Source of the DNA: Silvibacterium bohemicum
Lineage (GTDB): Bacteria; Acidobacteriota; Terriglobia; Terriglobales; Acidobacteriaceae
Assembly: GCF_001006305.1 (NCBI RefSeq)
Contig: NZ_LBHJ01000004.1
Coordinates: 682,001-746,000 of the forward strand
Length of the DNA stretch: 64,000 bases
Reading direction: 5' to 3'
Part shown: piece by piece, positions 15,372 through 36,836 of the stretch
Position numbering within the stretch: position 1 is the first letter of the stretch
Layout: each line of letters begins with the position of its first letter
Notes under the pieces: generated by a model
Told to the model about the DNA's origin: nothing
Database searches by the model: none
What the model saw: the letters and a program-made list of their open reading frames with translations, nothing else
Made by a program: the position numbers and the translations under genes

Positions 15372-18074
15372 TTGCAGCATCTACTAGCTAAATTGAACCC
15401 TGAGCAGCGTGCGGGCGTTGAGAGCGTCGACGGCCCCGTGCTCCTGCTCGCCGGCGCCGGCTCCGGTAAAACGCGCGTCATCACGCATCGCATCGCCTAT
15501 CTCATCCAGGAGCGCGGCGTGGCGCCCGACTCCATCCTCGCCGTCACCTTCACCAACAAGGCTTCGAAGGAGATGGCCGAGCGCGTCGACAGCCTGATTG
15601 GGCACTCGACCCTGGCCAAGCCGCTGGTCGCCACCTTCCACTCCTTCTGCGTGCGCATGCTGCGCCGCGACATCGAAGCCCTCCGCATCGGCAATGAAGG
15701 GCTGACGAAGAACTTCGCCATCTACGACGAGGCCGATCAGCAGGCCGTCGTGAAGGCTGCCATGCGCCGCATGGGCCTCGACGATAAGCAGCTCACGCCG
15801 CGCGTGGTCCTGTCCAAGATTTCCTGGGCCAAGAACCACATGATCGACCCACAGGAGTATTACCTCAGCTCCTCCGATCCAACCAGCGAGCGGGTGGCGC
15901 ACATCTTCGAGTCCTACAAGAAGGAACTGCTCAAGGCCAACGCCCTCGACTTCGACGATCTGCTGCTCGAAGCCGTGCGCTTGCTCAAGGTCTCCGGCGA
16001 AACCCGCGAGCGCTACAACCGCCGCTATCGTTATCTGCTCATCGACGAGTATCAGGACACCAACCGGCCGCAGTATGAGCTGATGAAGCTGCTGGCTGGA
16101 CCGGAAAAGAATGTCTGCGTGGTCGGCGACGAAGACCAGAGCATCTATTCCTGGCGCGGCGCCGACATCCGCAACATCCTCGAGTTCGAAAAGGACTTTC
16201 CCGGCGCGAAGACCATCCGCCTGGAACAAAATTATCGCTCCACGCAGATCATTCTCGAAGCCGCATCGGCCGTAGTCTCACGCAACACGCAGCGTAAAGG
16301 AAAGGCTCTATGGACCTCGCGCGAGGGCGGCTCGCTGATCGGCTATTACGAAGCGCCCGATGGCGAGAACGAAGCGCTGTTCATCGCCGATACCATCCAG
16401 AAGTATTTTCGCAAGGCCGGCCCGGAAGTAGACCAACCTCGCGCCGCCGTCCTCTATCGCACCAACTCGCAGTCCCGGCTGGTGGAAGAGGCGCTGCGCC
16501 GCTACGGCATCAAGTACACCATGGTCGGCGGCTTCTCTTTCTACGAGCGTGCCGAGATCAAAGACCTGCTGTGCTACCTGAAACTGATCCTGAACACGGA
16601 TGACTCCATCGCGCTCCAGCGTGTGATCAATACGCCGACGCGGGGCATCGGCAAGACCACCGTGGATACTCTGGAACGGCTTGCACTCGAGACCGGCTCC
16701 AGCACCTGGACCGCGATCCAGCGCGCGCTTCGCGAAAAATTGCTGCCGTCCCGAGCATTGATTGCCCTGGACACCTTTCGCCAGGTCATCGCAGATGCCC
16801 GTGCCATGCTAACTCCGGATTTTGCCGAAAAACTGGCCGAAGATGTCGCCGCGTCTGCGACAGATGCGGACGAAGATACCAGCTTCGCCTTCGAAGCAGA
16901 GGCAAGCGATGCCGCCGAAATCGAAACCGATATCAGCTTTGATTTCGGCGATGAACAACAGCATGGGCTGGCATTTCCATCAAGCTTTTCCCCCGGGCCA
17001 GAGCCCGATCTGCCCATCGATGCCGCCGCCTTCAATCCTTTCGCCGACGAGCCGCCCGTTCCGCATGCGGCAGCCTCGCACGCAGCTCCCGCGAGCAAGG
17101 TCGAAAAGATCTCTGAGGCGGTTCCCGGCTTTCGCGCTCCCGGCGATGCGGGGACACTGCCGGAGCTCATCAAGTTCGTGATCGATCGCACCGGATACAT
17201 TCGCTCGCTCGAAGAGGAAGGTACGCCGGAAGCCTTCTCCCGCATCGAGAACTTGAAGGAATTGGCGAACGCTGCGCAGGATGCGCACGAGCGCGGCGAG
17301 ACCCTCGCGGAGTTTCTGGATCACGCCGCGCTGTCCAGCGACACGGACAAGTACGATGCTGACTCACGCGTCACCCTCATGACCCTGCACGCAGCCAAGG
17401 GTCTCGAATTCCCTCTGGTCTTGCTGGCCGGCATGGAGGAAGGGCTCTTCCCGCACTCGCGCACCTTAAACGATCCGAACCAGATGGAGGAGGAGCGGCG
17501 ACTGTGCTACGTAGGCCTGACCCGGGCCATGGACACGCTGTTCGTCACGCGGGCGCGCTATCGCCGCCGTTATGGCAACGACATGCCGGAAGCCAGCATG
17601 GCGTCGCGCTTCCTTGAGGAGATTCCCTCCCATCTGATCGAAGAAGCTGCCGGCAGCACCCGGCAGAGCAGTTGGAACAGCCACGGCAGTTCCGGCTACG
17701 ACCGGCGCGGGGATGACGGTGCGACCGGCCGCCACTACAGCTACGAGGACGAAGACCAGAGCGCTGGCTCCTACAATGCTCGTTCCAACCAGACCGGCCG
17801 AGGCGCGAAACCCGAGAAATCGCTCGACAACATAGCGCAATTCTTCTCTTCGCGCGGCGCCGCCGTGCCGAAGTCGCGGCCCAAGCTGGATGTTCCGGAA
17901 CCGGCTGGCTCGAAGGGTCTGAAGAGCGGCCAGCGCGTCCGCCACCCCAAATATGGCGAGGGAGTCGTCTTCCGCCGCGAAGGCGATGGGGAAGATGCCA
18001 AGGTTACGGTACAATTTTCTAAGTTCGGAGTGAAGAAGCTGGTGGAGAAATTTGCCCAGCTGGAACGGCTTTAG
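15372..18074 (+). CDS. pcrA: UvrD/PcrA-type ATP-dependent DNA helicase with acidic insert
   Basis: A 900-residue SF1A 3'-5' helicase for repair, replication restart and mismatch repair. Motif I is LLAGAGSGKTRVITHRI (residues ~25-41), Ia AVTFTNKASKEM, II LLIDEYQDTN, III VVGDEDQSIYSWRGAD, IV RLEQNYRS, V VTLMTLHAAKGLEFP and VI EERRLCYVGLTRAM. The C-terminus (GLKSGQRVRHPKYGEGVVFRR) is the Tudor-like domain that binds RNA polymerase in PcrA. At about 900 residues it is longer than the usual 720-780. Much of the excess is an acidic, Pro/Ala-rich, probably disordered stretch at residues ~495-575 within the 2B subdomain. Start is TTG at 15372, giving the family-typical LNPEQRAGV near the N-terminus; no good ribosome site is visible. 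Confidence 0.95.
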   Translation: MQHLLAKLNPEQRAGVESVDGPVLLLAGAGSGKTRVITHRIAYLIQERGVAPDSILAVTFTNKASKEMAERVDSLIGHSTLAKPLVATFHSFCVRMLRRDIEALRIGNEGLTKNFAIYDEADQQAVVKAAMRRMGLDDKQLTPRVVLSKISWAKNHMIDPQEYYLSSSDPTSERVAHIFESYKKELLKANALDFDDLLLEAVRLLKVSGETRERYNRRYRYLLIDEYQDTNRPQYELMKLLAGPEKNVCVVGDEDQSIYSWRGADIRNILEFEKDFPGAKTIRLEQNYRSTQIILEAASAVVSRNTQRKGKALWTSREGGSLIGYYEAPDGENEALFIADTIQKYFRKAGPEVDQPRAAVLYRTNSQSRLVEEALRRYGIKYTMVGGFSFYERAEIKDLLCYLKLILNTDDSIALQRVINTPTRGIGKTTVDTLERLALETGSSTWTAIQRALREKLLPSRALIALDTFRQVIADARAMLTPDFAEKLAEDVAASATDADEDTSFAFEAEASDAAEIETDISFDFGDEQQHGLAFPSSFSPGPEPDLPIDAAAFNPFADEPPVPHAAASHAAPASKVEKISEAVPGFRAPGDAGTLPELIKFVIDRTGYIRSLEEEGTPEAFSRIENLKELANAAQDAHERGETLAEFLDHAALSSDTDKYDADSRVTLMTLHAAKGLEFPLVLLAGMEEGLFPHSRTLNDPNQMEEERRLCYVGLTRAMDTLFVTRARYRRRYGNDMPEASMASRFLEEIPSHLIEEAAGSTRQSSWNSHGSSGYDRRGDDGATGRHYSYEDEDQSAGSYNARSNQTGRGAKPEKSLDNIAQFFSSRGAAVPKSRPKLDVPEPAGSKGLKSGQRVRHPKYGEGVVFRREGDGEDAKVTVQFSKFGVKKLVEKFAQLERL

Positions 18075-28524: not shown

Positions 28525-29298
28525 TTACTGCGGCTTTGGTCCGGAAATGATGCTCATCAGGCAGTTGCCCATCTTGTCCTTTGGCTGAAAGACGCCGGCT
28601 TCCTGAGTGACCGCACCGATTGACGAGTCGAGGACCAGATCCAGGCCGAGCATTCCGGCCATGGCGTCCGCGGCGCGCCGTTCATGCTGCCGTGTCGGGA
28701 TATAGGGAACCTCAGAGGTGATGTAGAGGTCGGTAACTCCCTTCACCGGGCTGAAGTCGGTTGAGAAGCAGGCCCCATGCAGCTCCACGGAAGTGACTTG
28801 CTTGTAAATGACGATGTGCTCAAGAGCGACCGCTGAAGGGATGATCGTGGCATCCCGTCCGCTGAAGCAGGAACCCGAGGACGGACCCGAGGTTGAGGCG
28901 AGGAAATCGCATTGCCAGTCGTCGGGAGGAAGAGGAAGCTTGAACGCGATTCCCCAGTCCGCTCCCATGGGGCGATTCGAAACAACCCAGGGGGTATTGG
29001 TGCCGATATTCTTCTGGAGTTGCCCCAGCGTCAGTGGCGCGCTCACGTGGCCTGCAGGATAAACAGGGTCGATGCAGTGCCAGTAGTCTTCTAGCATGTA
29101 AGTCGCGCCGCCATTGATTGAAGCGCCGCTGCTGTGTTCGCATACCGGAGTGTAAATTTCAACTCCGGTGAGCTTGGCATTGGCGTCGGAGGAGTTTCCT
29201 TCCGTTGCAATGGAGAAAACAAAGGCACCGTTGAAGTGGATACGCAAATCGAATGGGGTCGCGGCCGCCGGAGGCGATCCTGCACCAGACTCAGTCAT
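28525..29298 (-). CDS. Unrecognised 257-aa protein coupled to the CHAT gene
   Basis: Not a family I recognise. It starts at an ATG 8 nt before the CHAT stop codon (overlap 29291-29298), so translation is coupled. It has no signal peptide or membrane helix. The N-terminus after a Pro/Ala linker, FDLRIHFNGAFVFSIA, resembles the first strand of a beta-sandwich, and GVEIYTPVCEHSSG continues it. Six cysteines are spread over the chain (VCEHS, HCIDP, QCDFL, SCFSG, ACFST, NCLMS). GADWGIAFKLPLPPDDW and KGVTDLYITSEVPYIPTRQHERRAADAMAGM are the most distinctive stretches. By position it is a candidate substrate or effector of the CHAT peptidase; that is inference only. Confidence 0.8.
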   Translation of the reverse strand: MTESGAGSPPAAATPFDLRIHFNGAFVFSIATEGNSSDANAKLTGVEIYTPVCEHSSGASINGGATYMLEDYWHCIDPVYPAGHVSAPLTLGQLQKNIGTNTPWVVSNRPMGADWGIAFKLPLPPDDWQCDFLASTSGPSSGSCFSGRDATIIPSAVALEHIVIYKQVTSVELHGACFSTDFSPVKGVTDLYITSEVPYIPTRQHERRAADAMAGMLGLDLVLDSSIGAVTQEAGVFQPKDKMGNCLMSIISGPKPQ

Positions 29299-32200
29299 TG
29301 TGTAACAGCTCCTTGAGGTTGGTAGTGCTCATCCCAAAAACGTAATATGGCGCCCAGTAATACGGGTGCCGGTATTCAGTGATCGTGCTCACTGAGTTTT
29401 CGGCCTGCAGGAGTGCCTGGGGGACTGCCAGCCCGCGTGCCAAACCGGAGTAGAACTCTTTCATCAACGCGACCGATGCAGCAGAGTCGACGTCCCAATG
29501 CGTCGCTACCACCTGCTGCGCTCCTTCAGTGGTGAACGTCTGAACAATGTCCTGGATATCGTCGGATTCTCGCTCTTCCTTTTTCCCGGTAGAACAGGCC
29601 GACAGCACGACAAGGCGGCAATCGGCGAAGGCATGCGGACCGAAGGTGCGCGCATCCAGCCAATCCGGGCCGGATCCTGCGGAACTGGCCATCAGGAGCT
29701 GCGTGACCCCGTTGACATACCGTGTGTGCCCGGCAAAATGTATCAGGGCTGCGTGCGGGGCAGCAGCCGCGACTGCACCGGCGGCTGCTTCGTCACCGAC
29801 GAAGACCTTGGGGCGATGCAGGAAACCAGCCACGGCCAGGGCCTCGCTCTTTGCTTCAGGCAGCCGCGAGGCCTCCGGATCGCCAGGGTCCGACGCTCCC
29901 ACAACCACACCTGGTCGCGGAAGTTTCGCCATCTCCGGCTCTCGACTAGCCAGCAGGACGGAGTGAATCGTGCTCGTGCCGAATTGCAACCCGAGATACC
30001 GGCCGTTCACCGGCAGCGCGGCAACCGGAAGAAACTCCATGCTGTCATCCAAGTCGAAGACCAGCGTCCGGTGCGCCTCGAGCGAGGAAGCAACCGGCGT
30101 GAGCAGAGAGGCCGCCAGCCGGGCGCCATAGAAGCGAATCTGGGCTTCGCTGCTCGCCGGGGTAGCCAGCACCTCAGAGAACGCGTGACACAGCAGATCG
30201 AAGCGCTCCGGCTCAATGCCCACCTCATGCATCCGGACGCCTTGCCCGTCCATGGTCCAGAGCAGCAGCGAATGATCCAGGCGGATGGTGCCGACGATCG
30301 TCTCCTGCTTGAGATGTCTGCGGGCCGCTTCGAGCGGCTGCGCGAGACAAGCAAGATCGGCCCCGTGGCACCAGTTTTGGAGCGAGACGCCGCTCGAAAG
30401 AATCCGATATCGCTCCCATAATGCAAGGGATTCCAGGGGATCTTTGCCCTGTCGCTGCCACAGAAGCACCAGAGCCGCATAGATCCCGCGGGAGCTCTCG
30501 ATCCAATCGATGCGGTCCTGCTGATCTTTCACCTCTCCGTAAGCCGCCTCAGCGTCTGCCAGTCCACGCGTGAGCCGGTCCGCGGCCAGTTGATAGTTCC
30601 CTTGCTGCAGCGCCAGGCGGCCGGCGGTCGCGGTATAGCTCAGTTCCATTTCGCGGTTGCCGATCGCGTCCACGTCGGATGCAACCGTCTCCAGCATTCT
30701 CGCGGCAGCCTGCGCATCTCCGCGAACAAGATAGGCTTCGGCAAGCAGAATCCCTGTGTTCGCGGCGGCTCCACGAAGGGCAACGTGATCCGGCAGAGAA
30801 ACCAGCTCCGACTTCGCGATCTCCAGGTCTCGCCGCGCTGCCAGGGTGTCACCGGCCTGGATTTCGGCCTTGACCAGCAGAAAACGATTCGAGTTGAGCT
30901 GCTCAGGATTTCCCTGCAACGCTGCCACGCTGACAGCCTCCCGTCGCAGCAGCTCGGCGCTGTAGAAGCGGCTTGACCGCTGCTCCGTGTAGGCCAGGCT
31001 GACGTATGGCTGAAGACGCCGGATCATCGGATAGTTGCCGCTCCAGTAATCCCGTAGCACCTGCATATTCATCTTCCAGGCGCGGCCGCGGTTTCCCATC
31101 GCCTCCTCGTCCGAGGCGGCAAAACCAAGCGCACGCAGATGGATCACCCGATAACCGGCATCGCTGGAAATTGTTAAAGCACGATGCAGGCTCGCCATTG
31201 CGTCCGCAAAATCGTTCTGTCGCGCGTAGCAGGACGATTGATCCGACCAGAAGAGCGATTCCTGCCAGGGATACCGGCCACTCGAGACCGAGGATTGCAA
31301 GTCGTGGGCCACCAGGAGACAGACGCGCGGATCCAGCAAATGCTCAAGGTCGTAGACCTGCTGTACACGCGCGGCGGCGATGCCCGCAATGTTGCCAGTA
31401 TGCTGGAAGGCTGCCTGCGCCTCCTGGGCTTCTTTAAGCGCATTCGCTGGATTCGCATACCTTCCATCATCGAGCGCGCGGGCGAGAAGGCGAACTCCGG
31501 CTACGTAGCCGGGAGTCGCAGCGCCGGCCAGCAGGTCTTCAAGCCATTGATCGCGATGATGCTCTCGCAGCGAAGCCGCGACTGCACGCAGCAGCGTTCG
31601 CGCTGCACTGCAAGTTTCGGTGCATTTCGATTCAGGGGGAGAAGAATTGCTGAAGGAAGAGTCGACTGCAGGAGGGGGAAAGGCGGCTTGAAGCAGGTGC
31701 GGGAGGGAAACGGTCGAAAGCTCTTCATCGTAATCGGCAATCATGGCCGGACTACGCGCCAGGTGCAGCATCCCCTCGGGATTGCCCAGAAACGGATCGA
31801 GCCGCGACTGCTGCGCTTTCACCTTGGCCTCAAGCGCTTCAATCTCGGCCAGACGTTTTTTGCCATCAGCAACCCAGGCCGGATCGTGTTCCACCGCGAG
31901 AAATCTCTTCCAGGCAGCGATCGCATTCGAATATTGGAAGAGGTCCTGCAGCACCAGGGCCTCGTTATAAATCACGATGGAGTTATTGGGCTCGCGCCGC
32001 GCCGCCTGCTCCAGATAATCCAGGGCCGTCGCCTCGTCCGTAGCGGCTTCCGAGGCCCTGGAGCGCATCAAGTACGCCGAAGCCAGATCTGTCAACGCGG
32101 ATACGTTTCCCGGGTCAGCCGCCAGCAGTCGCTTCAGCGTGTCGATGGCCGGGTCGTAGCTCTCATTCAGCAAATCGGAGCGGGCCTGCAGCAGCAGCCA

Positions 32201-32878
32201 ATGCGGATCTTCCGGCGTCTTCATCAGCGCCTGGGTGATCGCGGCGCGCGCCTCGAGCAAGGGCACCGAATCGCTCATGGTGGGTCCAGCCGCGCGGCTA
32301 TGACGCGACGAGTCGACGGGAGCAAATCCGGCGAGTGGGATACGCGCGTCCATCACGCGATGATCGGTGTAGGCCTCTGCCAGCAGGCGCTCCGGCGAGG
32401 ATTGGGGGTGCATGCCCCCTAGGAACAGAACGAAAAGAGCCGCCGCTGCGGCCAATCCGCCGGCGCCCAGAAACCATGGCCACAGAACGCGCATGCCGGA
32501 GGGGCTCTTCGACTGCCGGGTCGCAGCCAACATCGTCTGGGCCATGCGCTCCTGCCAGGCAGGAGTCAGAGAGGAAAGCTGGCCGAGCATCGCTGTTTCT
32601 TCCGGAGTCTGCTCGTCGGAGAGAACACCAGCCCAAAAACTTAACTGCGCGCCACAATGCTGACATTCCGCCGCATGTTCGACCAGCCGGCGGGATTGCT
32701 CATCAGCCGGTCCGTTCGAGGCAATTCGCTGCCATTCCGATGGGGCCGGACAGCTCCCCCGGCGCCTCGAAATCTCCAAAATACTATGCGATCCGATCCC
32801 CTCGCCGTCTTCACGCACGACCAGCCGGTCAAGGAGTTCCTCGATTTTTTCGCTGGGGACGCGCCGCGGAGGATTCAT
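29291..32878 (-). CDS. Anti-sigma-like zinc finger / TM / TPR / CHAT-peptidase fusion protein
   Basis: A 1195-residue multidomain protein. Residues 65-76 hold a zinc-finger motif H-x3-C-x2-C (VEHAAECQHC), as in anti-sigma factors. About 131-155 is one transmembrane helix (WFLGAGGLAAAAALFVLFLGG). The middle ~700 residues are helical TPR-type repeats, for example YDPAIDTLKRLLAADPGNVSALTDLASAYLM. The C-terminal ~280 residues are a CHAT domain, a caspase-like cysteine peptidase: His in IHFAGHTRY (about 1051) and Cys in VVLSACSTGK (about 1095), then GAQQVVATHWDVD. ATG 32878 overlaps the sigma-factor stop (ATGA), behind AGAGGTGA. The topology places the zinc finger in the cytoplasm and the TPR-CHAT part outside it, unless the helix is not membrane-spanning. 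Confidence 0.92.
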   Translation of the reverse strand: MNPPRRVPSEKIEELLDRLVVREDGEGIGSHSILEISRRRGSCPAPSEWQRIASNGPADEQSRRLVEHAAECQHCGAQLSFWAGVLSDEQTPEETAMLGQLSSLTPAWQERMAQTMLAATRQSKSPSGMRVLWPWFLGAGGLAAAAALFVLFLGGMHPQSSPERLLAEAYTDHRVMDARIPLAGFAPVDSSRHSRAAGPTMSDSVPLLEARAAITQALMKTPEDPHWLLLQARSDLLNESYDPAIDTLKRLLAADPGNVSALTDLASAYLMRSRASEAATDEATALDYLEQAARREPNNSIVIYNEALVLQDLFQYSNAIAAWKRFLAVEHDPAWVADGKKRLAEIEALEAKVKAQQSRLDPFLGNPEGMLHLARSPAMIADYDEELSTVSLPHLLQAAFPPPAVDSSFSNSSPPESKCTETCSAARTLLRAVAASLREHHRDQWLEDLLAGAATPGYVAGVRLLARALDDGRYANPANALKEAQEAQAAFQHTGNIAGIAAARVQQVYDLEHLLDPRVCLLVAHDLQSSVSSGRYPWQESLFWSDQSSCYARQNDFADAMASLHRALTISSDAGYRVIHLRALGFAASDEEAMGNRGRAWKMNMQVLRDYWSGNYPMIRRLQPYVSLAYTEQRSSRFYSAELLRREAVSVAALQGNPEQLNSNRFLLVKAEIQAGDTLAARRDLEIAKSELVSLPDHVALRGAAANTGILLAEAYLVRGDAQAAARMLETVASDVDAIGNREMELSYTATAGRLALQQGNYQLAADRLTRGLADAEAAYGEVKDQQDRIDWIESSRGIYAALVLLWQRQGKDPLESLALWERYRILSSGVSLQNWCHGADLACLAQPLEAARRHLKQETIVGTIRLDHSLLLWTMDGQGVRMHEVGIEPERFDLLCHAFSEVLATPASSEAQIRFYGARLAASLLTPVASSLEAHRTLVFDLDDSMEFLPVAALPVNGRYLGLQFGTSTIHSVLLASREPEMAKLPRPGVVVGASDPGDPEASRLPEAKSEALAVAGFLHRPKVFVGDEAAAGAVAAAAPHAALIHFAGHTRYVNGVTQLLMASSAGSGPDWLDARTFGPHAFADCRLVVLSACSTGKKEERESDDIQDIVQTFTTEGAQQVVATHWDVDSAASVALMKEFYSGLARGLAVPQALLQAENSVSTITEYRHPYYWAPYYVFGMSTTNLKELLHND

Positions 32879-33573
32879 AGCCACTCACCTCTCTGAATCG
32901 TGGACTCGGAGAGAAATCCTTCGCGGGAACTACATTTTTTTACAGAAACTGAGGTTACAAACGGTTTTTGGACGTGTTTGCGTATCAGCGCGGTCATGCG
33001 ATGAAGCGCACTTTCCACTCCCTTGACCGAAAGCGCGATGCCCGGAAGGTTAGCGATGGCGCTCGCCGTCATCCCCTGCTGGTAATAGAGCCAGAACACG
33101 GTGCGATCCCGTCGCCCCGTCTCATCCCGGCCGGAGCTCTCGAGAAAGCTGTCGATCTCCCGTAATAGCTGGTTGCGCTCGATCCACTCCGCATCCTGCA
33201 CCATGCCCACGTGCAGTTCGGAGATAGGCTCTTCCTTCACGCCTCCTCCGCGCTTCACGGTGTTCCGTTTGCGGAAATAGTCGTTCGCCGTGGCCGCGCT
33301 TACTACCTTTGCGAACGCGGTGAAGGAACCATTGTGGCGGGGCTCAAATTCGCGCAGAACCTTACGGTCGTTCTCGCAGAACTTGAGAAAGACATCCTGG
33401 ACAATATCATCGATGACGGCGGGCGATGTTTCCCCCCACAGCCGGCCCACGCGCAATGCGCTGAGCGCTATCGGACGAGTGAATCGCCGCACGAACTCAT
33501 TCCACGCATCTATATCGGCCTCAACTGCACAGAGGCTAGCTAGGTCGTCGGATGAAATGTCTTTTATAACCAC
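32875..33573 (-). CDS. ECF-like RNA polymerase sigma factor
   Basis: A 232-residue sigma-70-family factor with regions 2 and 4 only. Region 2 includes WNEFVRRFTRPIALSALRV and DIVQDVFLKFCENDRKVL, then SFTAFAKVVSAATANDYFRKRN (the 2.4 part). Region 4 has DRTVFWLYYQQGMTASAIAN, then GIALSVKGVESALHRMTALIRKHV. A ~30-residue linker and a C-terminal tail of ~30 are unusual. It begins at GTG 33573 with a weak ribosome site. It is the first gene of a three-gene operon. The next gene, overlapping by 4 nt, encodes an anti-sigma-like zinc finger fused to a CHAT peptidase, so control of this factor by proteolysis of its own regulator is plausible. Confidence 0.9.
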   Translation of the reverse strand: MVIKDISSDDLASLCAVEADIDAWNEFVRRFTRPIALSALRVGRLWGETSPAVIDDIVQDVFLKFCENDRKVLREFEPRHNGSFTAFAKVVSAATANDYFRKRNTVKRGGGVKEEPISELHVGMVQDAEWIERNQLLREIDSFLESSGRDETGRRDRTVFWLYYQQGMTASAIANLPGIALSVKGVESALHRMTALIRKHVQKPFVTSVSVKKCSSREGFLSESTIQRGEWL

Positions 33574-33733
33574 GAGAATGGCATCAGATTACATCAAAAT
33601 CTTCATGTTTAGCACGATTTCCGAGCTTCAACCCAATCCCGGTTAAGTGCTGCGGACGCCTGTAAACGGTTACCTGAGAGCAAATTGTCCGGATTCGGAT
33701 ATAGTGGTCCCGTTCTTGGGAGGAACCCCGATT

Positions 33734-35083: not shown

Positions 35084-35929
35084 TCAATTCTGCCCGGAAA
35101 GAATCCGCTCTGCAGAAGCCTCTTCCACCACCTCGTCGCTGACCACGAAAAAGTGGCGGAGATTCGCGACCCCGAAAGAAGTCGTAATCGCCACGTCGGA
35201 CGCGTCGCGTCCGACCGCCATCAGCACCCGCCCCACACGCGGGCGGTTGTGCCGTGCATCGAAGGTCCACCAGCGGCCGGAGAGATACACCTCGAGCCAC
35301 GCGCTGAAATCCATCGGGGAGGGCGGAATGTCGATGCGAATGTCGCCGAGATAGCCGGTCGCGTAGCGCGCCGGAATATTCAAGGCTCGCAAAAACGTAA
35401 TGGCCAGATGCTGGAAATCGCGGCACACCCCCTGCCGCTCCGTGAAAACATCCAGTGCGGTTTTGGTCGGCCGTGCAAAGTGATATCCGAAGGTGACCTT
35501 CTCATGCACCCAGCTGCAAACCGCGTGAACGCGCGACCACCCCTTGGGCAGATGCCCGAAGAGATCCAGTGCAATGCCGGAGAGCCGGTCGACCTCGCAG
35601 TAGCGGCTGCTCATCAGGTAGCGCAGAACGTCGCTGGGCAATTCGGAGATCGGATGCTCGACAGCGGAGAGGTTAATTGCGTCTGGCTCACCGGAATCCA
35701 AAATAAGAGTGTTGTTCGAGAGCCGAAGCCGGCCGGCCGGAGCGTCGAAACGTGTGCAGACGTTGCCGAAGCTATCGATATAGCAGTCGAGAGAAATCGC
35801 GGGATCCACCTGCATCAGGTCAGGCTCGCGCAGATCGGCGGAGCGCGAGGGATGGACGTGCAGCATGGCTACAAAAGAAACGGGCGCTGGCAGGTCAAAT
35901 TGGATATCGTATCCAAGTCGGATAAGCAT
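35084..35929 (-). CDS. Transglutaminase-like cysteine protease (Anbu-associated type)
   Basis: A 281-residue protein with an N-terminal beta domain (MLIRLGYDIQFDLPAPVSFVAML) and a C-terminal transglutaminase core. The nucleophile is C169 in ERQGVCRDFQHLAITFLRALNIPARYATGYLG. The second catalytic segment reads MDFSAWLEVYLSGRWWTFDARHN: Asp 224 is present, but where many transglutaminase-fold proteins have His before AW there is Ser 209. The family sits beside the proteasome-like anbu gene in many bacteria, as here. I start at ATG 35929; the longer open frame upstream has no family support. Divergent from anbu with a 160-nt shared promoter region. Confidence 0.88.
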   Translation of the reverse strand: MLIRLGYDIQFDLPAPVSFVAMLHVHPSRSADLREPDLMQVDPAISLDCYIDSFGNVCTRFDAPAGRLRLSNNTLILDSGEPDAINLSAVEHPISELPSDVLRYLMSSRYCEVDRLSGIALDLFGHLPKGWSRVHAVCSWVHEKVTFGYHFARPTKTALDVFTERQGVCRDFQHLAITFLRALNIPARYATGYLGDIRIDIPPSPMDFSAWLEVYLSGRWWTFDARHNRPRVGRVLMAVGRDASDVAITTSFGVANLRHFFVVSDEVVEEASAERILSGQN

Positions 35930-36089
35930 AGATTTTCTTTCATGGCCCTTTCGCCCTGAATTCGTGCCGGGATGCCCATTATGCAGCAAGGATGGCGATA
36001 TTAAGATGCGATGAATGGCCTGAAACGTTTGTCGCGGCCGCATTTCGTTTAGAGTTTCACTAGCGACGACTATCGCTACGAGGGACGAC

Positions 36090-36836
36090 TTGACGTACTG
36101 TCTCGGCATTCTTACCCACCAGGGATTGGTCATGGCCTCCGACTCGCGCTCCAACGCGGGCTTCGATCAGGTCAACATTTGCCGCAAGATGCACACCTTC
36201 GTTCATCCGGGTGAGCGGGCCTTCGTCATCCTCACCAGCGGCAGTCTTTCCCTTACGCAATCTGTCATTGCCCTGCTACGCGATGAATTCGACGCGGGCG
36301 AAGGACTTGCACGGGTGAATTCGTTCTACGCAGCGGCACGCGTGGTTGGCGACTGCGTGCGCAAGGTGTCGGAGCTCGACCGCGCCGCTCTCGAGCGCGA
36401 CGGATTCAACTTCAACATCAATCTTCTGCTTGGAGGACAGGTCAAGGGCGAGCGCCCGGCTCTCTCGCTGATCTATCCCCAGGGCAATCCGTTGAGCGCC
36501 ACACACGACTCGCCGTATCTGCAGATCGGCGAGGTCAAATACGGCCGGCCCATCCTCGATCGCGGCATCGTCTCCGGCTCGACCACGCTCGAAGACGCGG
36601 CCATGTACGCGTTGCTCTCGTATGACGCCACCATGCGCTCCAACGTGACCGTAGGGCCGCCCATCGAATTTCTGCTGTATGAGAACGACAAGCTGGAGTT
36701 GGACCGCTATCGACGCTTCTCCGCCGACGACTCGGAGTTGATGCTCATCCACCGCTGCTGGGAGCAGGCGCTGCGCCGCGCCGTCGAGGACCTACCCAAG
36801 ATCCAGTTCAACGCCTGTCTGCCAAATCTTCCGTAG
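36090..36836 (+). CDS. Anbu-like proteasome-type protease (Ntn hydrolase)
   Basis: A 248-residue bacterial proteasome-homologous protein (COG3484/Anbu). It assembles into open helical or ring-like oligomers. The start MTYCLGILTHQGLVMASDSRSNAG exposes Thr2 as the N-terminal nucleophile after Met removal; the SDSR segment supplies the conserved Asp/Arg of the active site and RKMHTF a Lys. GSTTLEDAAMYALLSYDATMRSNVTVGPPIEF is the conserved C-terminal half. The start codon is TTG 36090, the only one that puts Thr at position 2, behind GAGGGA. Its physiological substrates are not established. Confidence 0.93.
   Translation: MTYCLGILTHQGLVMASDSRSNAGFDQVNICRKMHTFVHPGERAFVILTSGSLSLTQSVIALLRDEFDAGEGLARVNSFYAAARVVGDCVRKVSELDRAALERDGFNFNINLLLGGQVKGERPALSLIYPQGNPLSATHDSPYLQIGEVKYGRPILDRGIVSGSTTLEDAAMYALLSYDATMRSNVTVGPPIEFLLYENDKLELDRYRRFSADDSELMLIHRCWEQALRRAVEDLPKIQFNACLPNLP

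Follow-up and report, generated by a model that had tools for sequence, protein, structure and literature searches.

Analysis of a 64,000-nucleotide stretch of the Silvibacterium bohemicum genome (contig NZ_LBHJ01000004.1, positions 682,001 to 746,000; from here on the window, whose own numbering is used throughout) identified a locus of three intact open reading frames (ORFs), all on the minus strand, within positions 33573 to 28525. They encode a sigma factor of the extracytoplasmic function (ECF) type, a fusion protein that combines a zinc finger, a predicted transmembrane (TM) helix, a TPR region and a CHAT peptidase domain, and a third protein. We favour a reading in which the fusion is an anti-sigma factor that spans the membrane and brings its own caspase-like protease, the module as a whole being a three-gene relative of DdvS/DdvA from Myxococcus xanthus, and put the probability of this at a little under 60%. 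The domain architecture, the conservation of the zinc ligands and of the catalytic dyad, the linkage of the genes and their natural splitting in some genomes are all established by sequence comparison.

Organisation of the locus

The sigma factor gene (32875 to 33573, minus strand) encodes P0003, a protein of 232 amino acids (aa) that scores 45.1 bits with the NCBIfam model TIGR02937, above the cut-off of 42.9. Matches to the Pfam models of sigma regions 2 and 4 stay below their cut-offs (Sigma70_r2, E 3.7e-4), and a profile of the sigma family (A3) matches sigma-H and sigma-E chains. The fusion gene (29291 to 32884, minus strand) encodes P0002, of 1197 aa if translated from the GTG at 32884. 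An ATG at 32878 is the other candidate start, and its choice leaves a 4-nt ATGA overlap with the sigma gene. On its other side the fusion gene overlaps by 8 nt the third gene (28525 to 29298, minus strand), which encodes P0001, of 257 aa. An original prediction for this DNA had described an overlapping minus-strand trio headed by an ECF-like sigma gene, and on both points the intact ORFs and the TIGR02937 score agree with it. None of the three proteins was matched by PADLOC.

Survey of related loci

In total 98 neighbourhoods were examined, the window and 97 fetched from other genomic locations. Core loci are those where the best CHAT ORF scores above 600 bits with a profile of the fusion family (A1), and number 69; a further 24 (tier 2) score 250–600 bits and five score lower. 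At E up to 1e-120 the profile finds members in 71 genomes out of 398 from the window's taxonomic family, spread over 16 of 79 genera. P0002 as a single query, at E up to 1e-20, picks up relatives in 15 of 100 genomes, matches to the CHAT domain alone being counted.

In 65 of the 69 core loci the gene directly upstream, on the same strand, encodes a sigma factor; the zinc-finger motif is likewise found in 65, and a relative of the third gene follows downstream in 59. With the loci used for profile training excluded, the sigma gene is present in 53/56 and the third gene in 45/55. The zinc-finger count is partly so by construction, because profile A1 contains the zinc finger; the linkage counts for the sigma and third genes are free of this effect. 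Of the four core loci without zinc finger or sigma gene, two are cut by a contig end (L034 and L041) and two are split (L039 and L194, see below). The three-gene linkage is not due to chance. Its conservation had been named beforehand as a point on which the original prediction should stand or fall, and it holds; one congener, G003 (L031), does have no third gene.

Among plasmid records P0001 found no match, and P0002 matched 22, none over 80% of the query; in the best 20 of these 22 the match is confined to the C-terminal part. No relatives of P0001 were found in viral contigs.

Elsewhere in the genome is an orphan sigma gene, a close paralogue of the one described here (G000:C12:440340-440954, L197 and L210; A3, E 1.5e-62); a search of the surrounding 12 kb gave no CHAT or third-family ORF. 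Four other CHAT genes of the genome (L211–L214) have neither a zinc-finger motif nor a third-family neighbour; at one of these, L213, a sigma-like ORF below Pfam cut-offs lies about 1.3 kb upstream of the CHAT gene.

Architecture of the fusion protein

The N-terminal part of P0002 carries a zinc finger of the anti-sigma type, C45...H70-x3-C74-x2-C77 (32654 to 32752, minus strand), with its ligands kept in all 65 core proteins that have an N-terminus. C45 sits 25 residues ahead of H70, and the nearest cysteine is at exactly this distance before the zinc-finger histidine in 54 of the 65; such spacing is typical of anti-sigma zinc fingers. Two zinc-finger motifs are present in 38 core loci, compared with one in the window protein. 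The zf-HC2 model (PF13490) matches 13 of 40 zinc-finger stretches at E up to 1, and its Pfam cut-off is passed by the zinc finger-TPR protein of a split locus (L105, 27.2 vs 22.2 bits). Searched against chains of the Protein Data Bank (PDB), the zinc-finger profile (A5) has as its best match 8rlz_A, “Antisigma factor DdvA” (E 0.0026), followed by 8rot_B (E 0.014); the next is ChrR, another anti-sigma factor (E 1.2). The DdvA match and the L105 score both support the anti-sigma assignment of the original prediction.

A membrane helix is predicted at aa 138–156 (32417 to 32473, minus strand; Kyte-Doolittle maximum 2.15). Of its two flanks, the N-terminal one has the higher net charge in 53 of 65 core proteins, with equality in four and the reverse in eight. 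The helix is accordingly predicted with its N-terminus inside, which would place the TPR-CHAT part on the outer side of the membrane, a consequence that the original prediction had not drawn. The TPR region has the approximate limits 30305 to 32254 (minus strand), on the basis of Pfam TPR matches below cut-offs at aa 211–347, 545–575 and 713–779.

The CHAT peptidase domain occupies aa 920–1184 (29333 to 30127, minus strand; PF12770, E 7.7e-43). Its predicted catalytic residues are His1053 (codon at 29726 to 29728, minus strand) and Cys1097 (codon at 29594 to 29596, minus strand), spaced by 44. This dyad, the conservation of which had also been set in advance as a test, is intact in 69/69 core proteins; the tier-2 group keeps it in 22 of 24, with gaps at these positions in the remaining two.

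The third protein family

The third gene had been put down as unrecognised, and this stands as far as the libraries go, since no Pfam, NCBIfam or PADLOC model matches P0001 at E up to 1; the gene is not isolated, since a divergent family accompanies the fusions in the 59 core loci given above. As a query P0001 finds relatives in only three of 61 genomes, which belong to the window's genus and include its own genome, and members outside the genus are 13–20% identical to P0001. Due to this low identity, membership was tested with profiles from which relatives had been left out. A profile lacking the window's genus recovers P0001 at E 2.8e-15, and one that also lacks 10 ORFs of the next closest groups without export signals does so at E 1.5e-5; among the 5878 ORFs of the 98 loci, the only stray match of the leave-out profile is the third-like ORF of L173. 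The main profile, which was iterated from 62 ORFs with A2 alone to 64, has 64 matches in the same set, all of them downstream of the CHAT gene and on its strand.

Three positions are nearly invariant in the family (window numbering): G24 (61/64), H55 (62/64) and C246 (61/64). Tat-, Sec- or lipoprotein-like N-termini are present in 43/64 members by crude rules, under which some calls are probably wrong (e.g. L177). No credible PDB chain matched the family profile at E up to 1. The profile alone, run over 347 genomes, matched only genomes that had supplied training members, a search that was insensitive at first look, as it passed over the third gene of G265, which scores E 3.7e-18.

Split loci and a C11 peptidase in place of the third gene

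The fusion is naturally taken apart in a few genomes. L039 (a one-contig genome) and L194 encode the sigma factor and a zinc finger-TPR protein on one strand, and the third gene with a TM-TPR-CHAT protein on the other; in L108 sigma factor and zinc finger share one strand, and a third-like ORF (identified by eye) and CHAT the other. From this arrangement it follows that the zinc finger goes with the sigma factor and CHAT with the third gene. L105 is likewise split. The CHAT proteins of all four loci have a hydrophobic stretch of their own at aa 11–25 and, together with the charges that flank the helix of the fusion, this predicts a TPR-CHAT part outside the membrane.

Where the third gene is missing, a convergent Peptidase_C11-like (clostripain-like) gene is found downstream in five of 10 core loci (L031, L144, L170, L089 and L172), vs none of the other 59. 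The assignment rests on PF03415 in the four tested by Pfam and on phmmer in L170. The congener G003 is one of these cases, with a C11 peptidase instead of the third gene. Neither gene is present in L180, L181, L184 and L185, and L173 has a third-like ORF.

Relation to DdvS and DdvA

The original prediction had tentatively taken the arrangement to be undescribed. For the pairing of a sigma factor with a zinc finger-TPR-CHAT protein this claim fails, as M. xanthus DdvA came before it. DdvA is the anti-sigma factor of the ECF sigma factor DdvS; its inactivation leaves DdvS active, and the promoter PddvS requires DdvS (PMC4374960). We take 8rot_B, annotated as “CHAT domain-containing protein”, to be DdvA because its aligned residues are identical to 8rlz_A. 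The full fusion profile aligns to 8rot_B over the zinc finger (6–43, weakly), the TPR region (89–301) and CHAT (833–974), with His and Cys in register; fusion profiles also match 8rw5, a CHAT protein. By these alignments, the pair is already known and represented by DdvS/DdvA. For the third family, the split versions and the C11 replacement, no description was found in searches of an open-licence library, which went through the combination of CHAT, sigma and anti-sigma, as the third family has no name.

Proposed mechanism and its alternatives

From the profile match and the M. xanthus precedent we infer that the zinc finger, or fingers, would hold the co-encoded sigma factor in the cytoplasm, with one predicted helix crossing the membrane and TPR-CHAT directed outward. 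Linkage and the split loci suggest that the third protein is a dedicated TPR-CHAT partner, acting either as ligand or inhibitor or as substrate. A signal may alter its contact with TPR-CHAT and so activate CHAT, which would then cut either its own chain or the third protein. With the anti-sigma factor thus inactivated, the sigma factor would be set free to transcribe its target genes, its own operon probably among them. More tentatively, and with odds that we consider to be against it, the module may be a self-contained transmembrane switch, in which a single chain is anti-sigma factor, sensor and protease, the mostly exported family with conserved G, H and C is its dedicated ligand or substrate, and no separate site-1 protease is needed.

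Several observations weigh against the favoured reading. On its own the zinc finger of P0002 has no zf-HC2 match, and the E-value of the 8rlz match is modest. The outward placement of TPR-CHAT is a prediction alone, and the putative protease activity is deduced from conserved residues. P0001 and 20 other members of its family (out of 64, some of these 20 truncated or mis-started) have no export signal, which would put them on the wrong side for simple periplasmic contact. The single-sequence fold of P0001 is uninformative (pLDDT 37). Ten of 69 core loci have no third gene by the main profile, or nine if L173 is counted by the second profile.

CHAT might be a receptor only, with the anti-sigma factor degraded by another protease, of site-1/site-2 type or a housekeeping one, or releasing the sigma factor by a conformational change without cutting. 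Degradation of this kind is documented for the anti-sigma factor RseA, which is taken apart by DegS, RseP and ClpXP in turn (PMC10028731), and the signal that inactivates DdvA was described as unknown in 2015 (PMC4374960). The conservation of His1053 and Cys1097 through core and tier-2 proteins argues against a pure receptor, which would not need them, and makes this explanation unlikely in our view. Rather unlikely too is a conflict or cell-death module, in which the main role of CHAT would be to activate or process an effector, the third protein, and the sigma factor would raise expression. Caspase systems with ECF sigma neighbours have been proposed as conflict systems (PMC8195603), the third protein pairs with CHAT and not with the sigma factor in L039, L194 and L108, and occurrence is patchy (the 71 of 398 genomes above). 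Against this stand the lack of PADLOC matches, neighbouring genes that look ordinarily metabolic (glycine-cleavage-like ORFs by eye and a GFO/IDH oxidoreductase), and the membrane anti-sigma architecture which, with the DdvA precedent, points to signalling.

The co-occurrence of TPR-CHAT with an ECF sigma factor also recalls the type III-E CRISPR system (Craspase), of which the locus might be a relative whose TPR-CHAT cuts a Csx30-like third protein to release the sigma factor. P0003 matches CAS_III-E_sigma weakly and far below cut-off (E 4.3e-5, 23.5 vs 100 bits). Positions 18000 to 46000 of the window have no CRISPR-like repeat array (a gRAMP gene was not searched for), PADLOC matched none of the three proteins and no PDB chain credibly matched the third-family profile at E up to 1. 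The anti-sigma element is here a zinc finger fused to CHAT with a membrane helix in addition. Membership in this system is disfavoured and appears extremely improbable.

Of these readings we retain the transmembrane anti-sigma factor that carries a protease. With a candidate partner, conserved catalytic residues and natural splits at hand, the switching-off of a CHAT-bearing anti-sigma factor becomes directly testable and, if the predicted topology is true, CHAT proteases also act as sensors outside the cytoplasm.

Promoter motif, weaker relatives and surrounding genes

TGTAAAA or GTAAAAT occurs ahead of the sigma gene in 10 of 65 loci; 200 resampled sets gave 1.2 on average. In eight of the 65 (L031, L032, L036, L151, L154, L160, L163 and L173) TGTAAAAT lies 21–34 nt before the called sigma start, and in the window a weaker TGTAATCTGA occupies 33584 to 33593, 20 nt before the start. 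Since the TGTAAAA/GTAAAAT box also resembles a housekeeping -10 element, autoregulation is unproven.

Eight weaker relatives (L092–L094, L096, L100–L102 and L104) combine another small sigma-like protein (HHalign against A3, E 7e-5, probability 63%) with a TM-TPR-CHAT protein that has no zinc-finger motif. Their downstream proteins (A4, 12 sequences) have an invariant G, H and C. We do not claim that the tier-2 third proteins belong to the same family as P0001, as HHalign gives E 0.0031 with a probability of 10% over 43 columns, and E 0.027 over 19 columns. L094 also carries a C39-like gene, and L095 a subtilase gene.

Near the operon, at 35087 to 36833, the window has a transglutaminase-like gene and a weakly proteasome-like gene, two kinds of gene that are often found together.

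Comparison with known systems

The closest counterpart is DdvS/DdvA, as described in PMC4374960 and by the alignment of His and Cys in 8rot_B: an ECF sigma factor with an anti-sigma factor composed of N-terminal zinc finger, TPR and CHAT. The two differ in length, the PDB chain having 991 aa vs 1197 aa here, and are distant in sequence. In Craspase (Csx29, a TPR-CHAT protein, with Csx30 and CASP-sigma) a TPR-CHAT protease likewise controls an ECF-like sigma factor, and the dyad spacing is 43 (H615/C658) compared with 44 in P0002 (PMC10028731). There the protease is RNA-guided and separate from the sigma inhibitor (PMC10028731), whereas in P0002 protease and inhibitor are fused, zinc-finger based and, by prediction, membrane-anchored. 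The CalpL/CalpT/CalpS system also frees a sigma factor by cutting an anti-sigma factor, using a Lon-family protease with a SAVED sensor that is activated by cA4 (PMC11229360). In the ECF54 group CHAT and subtilase genes lie near the ECF sigma gene, and proteolysis has been proposed without an anti-sigma factor, which the group lacks according to the part of the source consulted (PMC8999054). The EACC2-caspase neighbourhoods, finally, place a caspase domain near an ECF sigma factor and a TPR protein, with a different domain set (EACC2 and DUF1822); the consulted portion of that paper mentions no zinc-finger fusion (PMC8195603).

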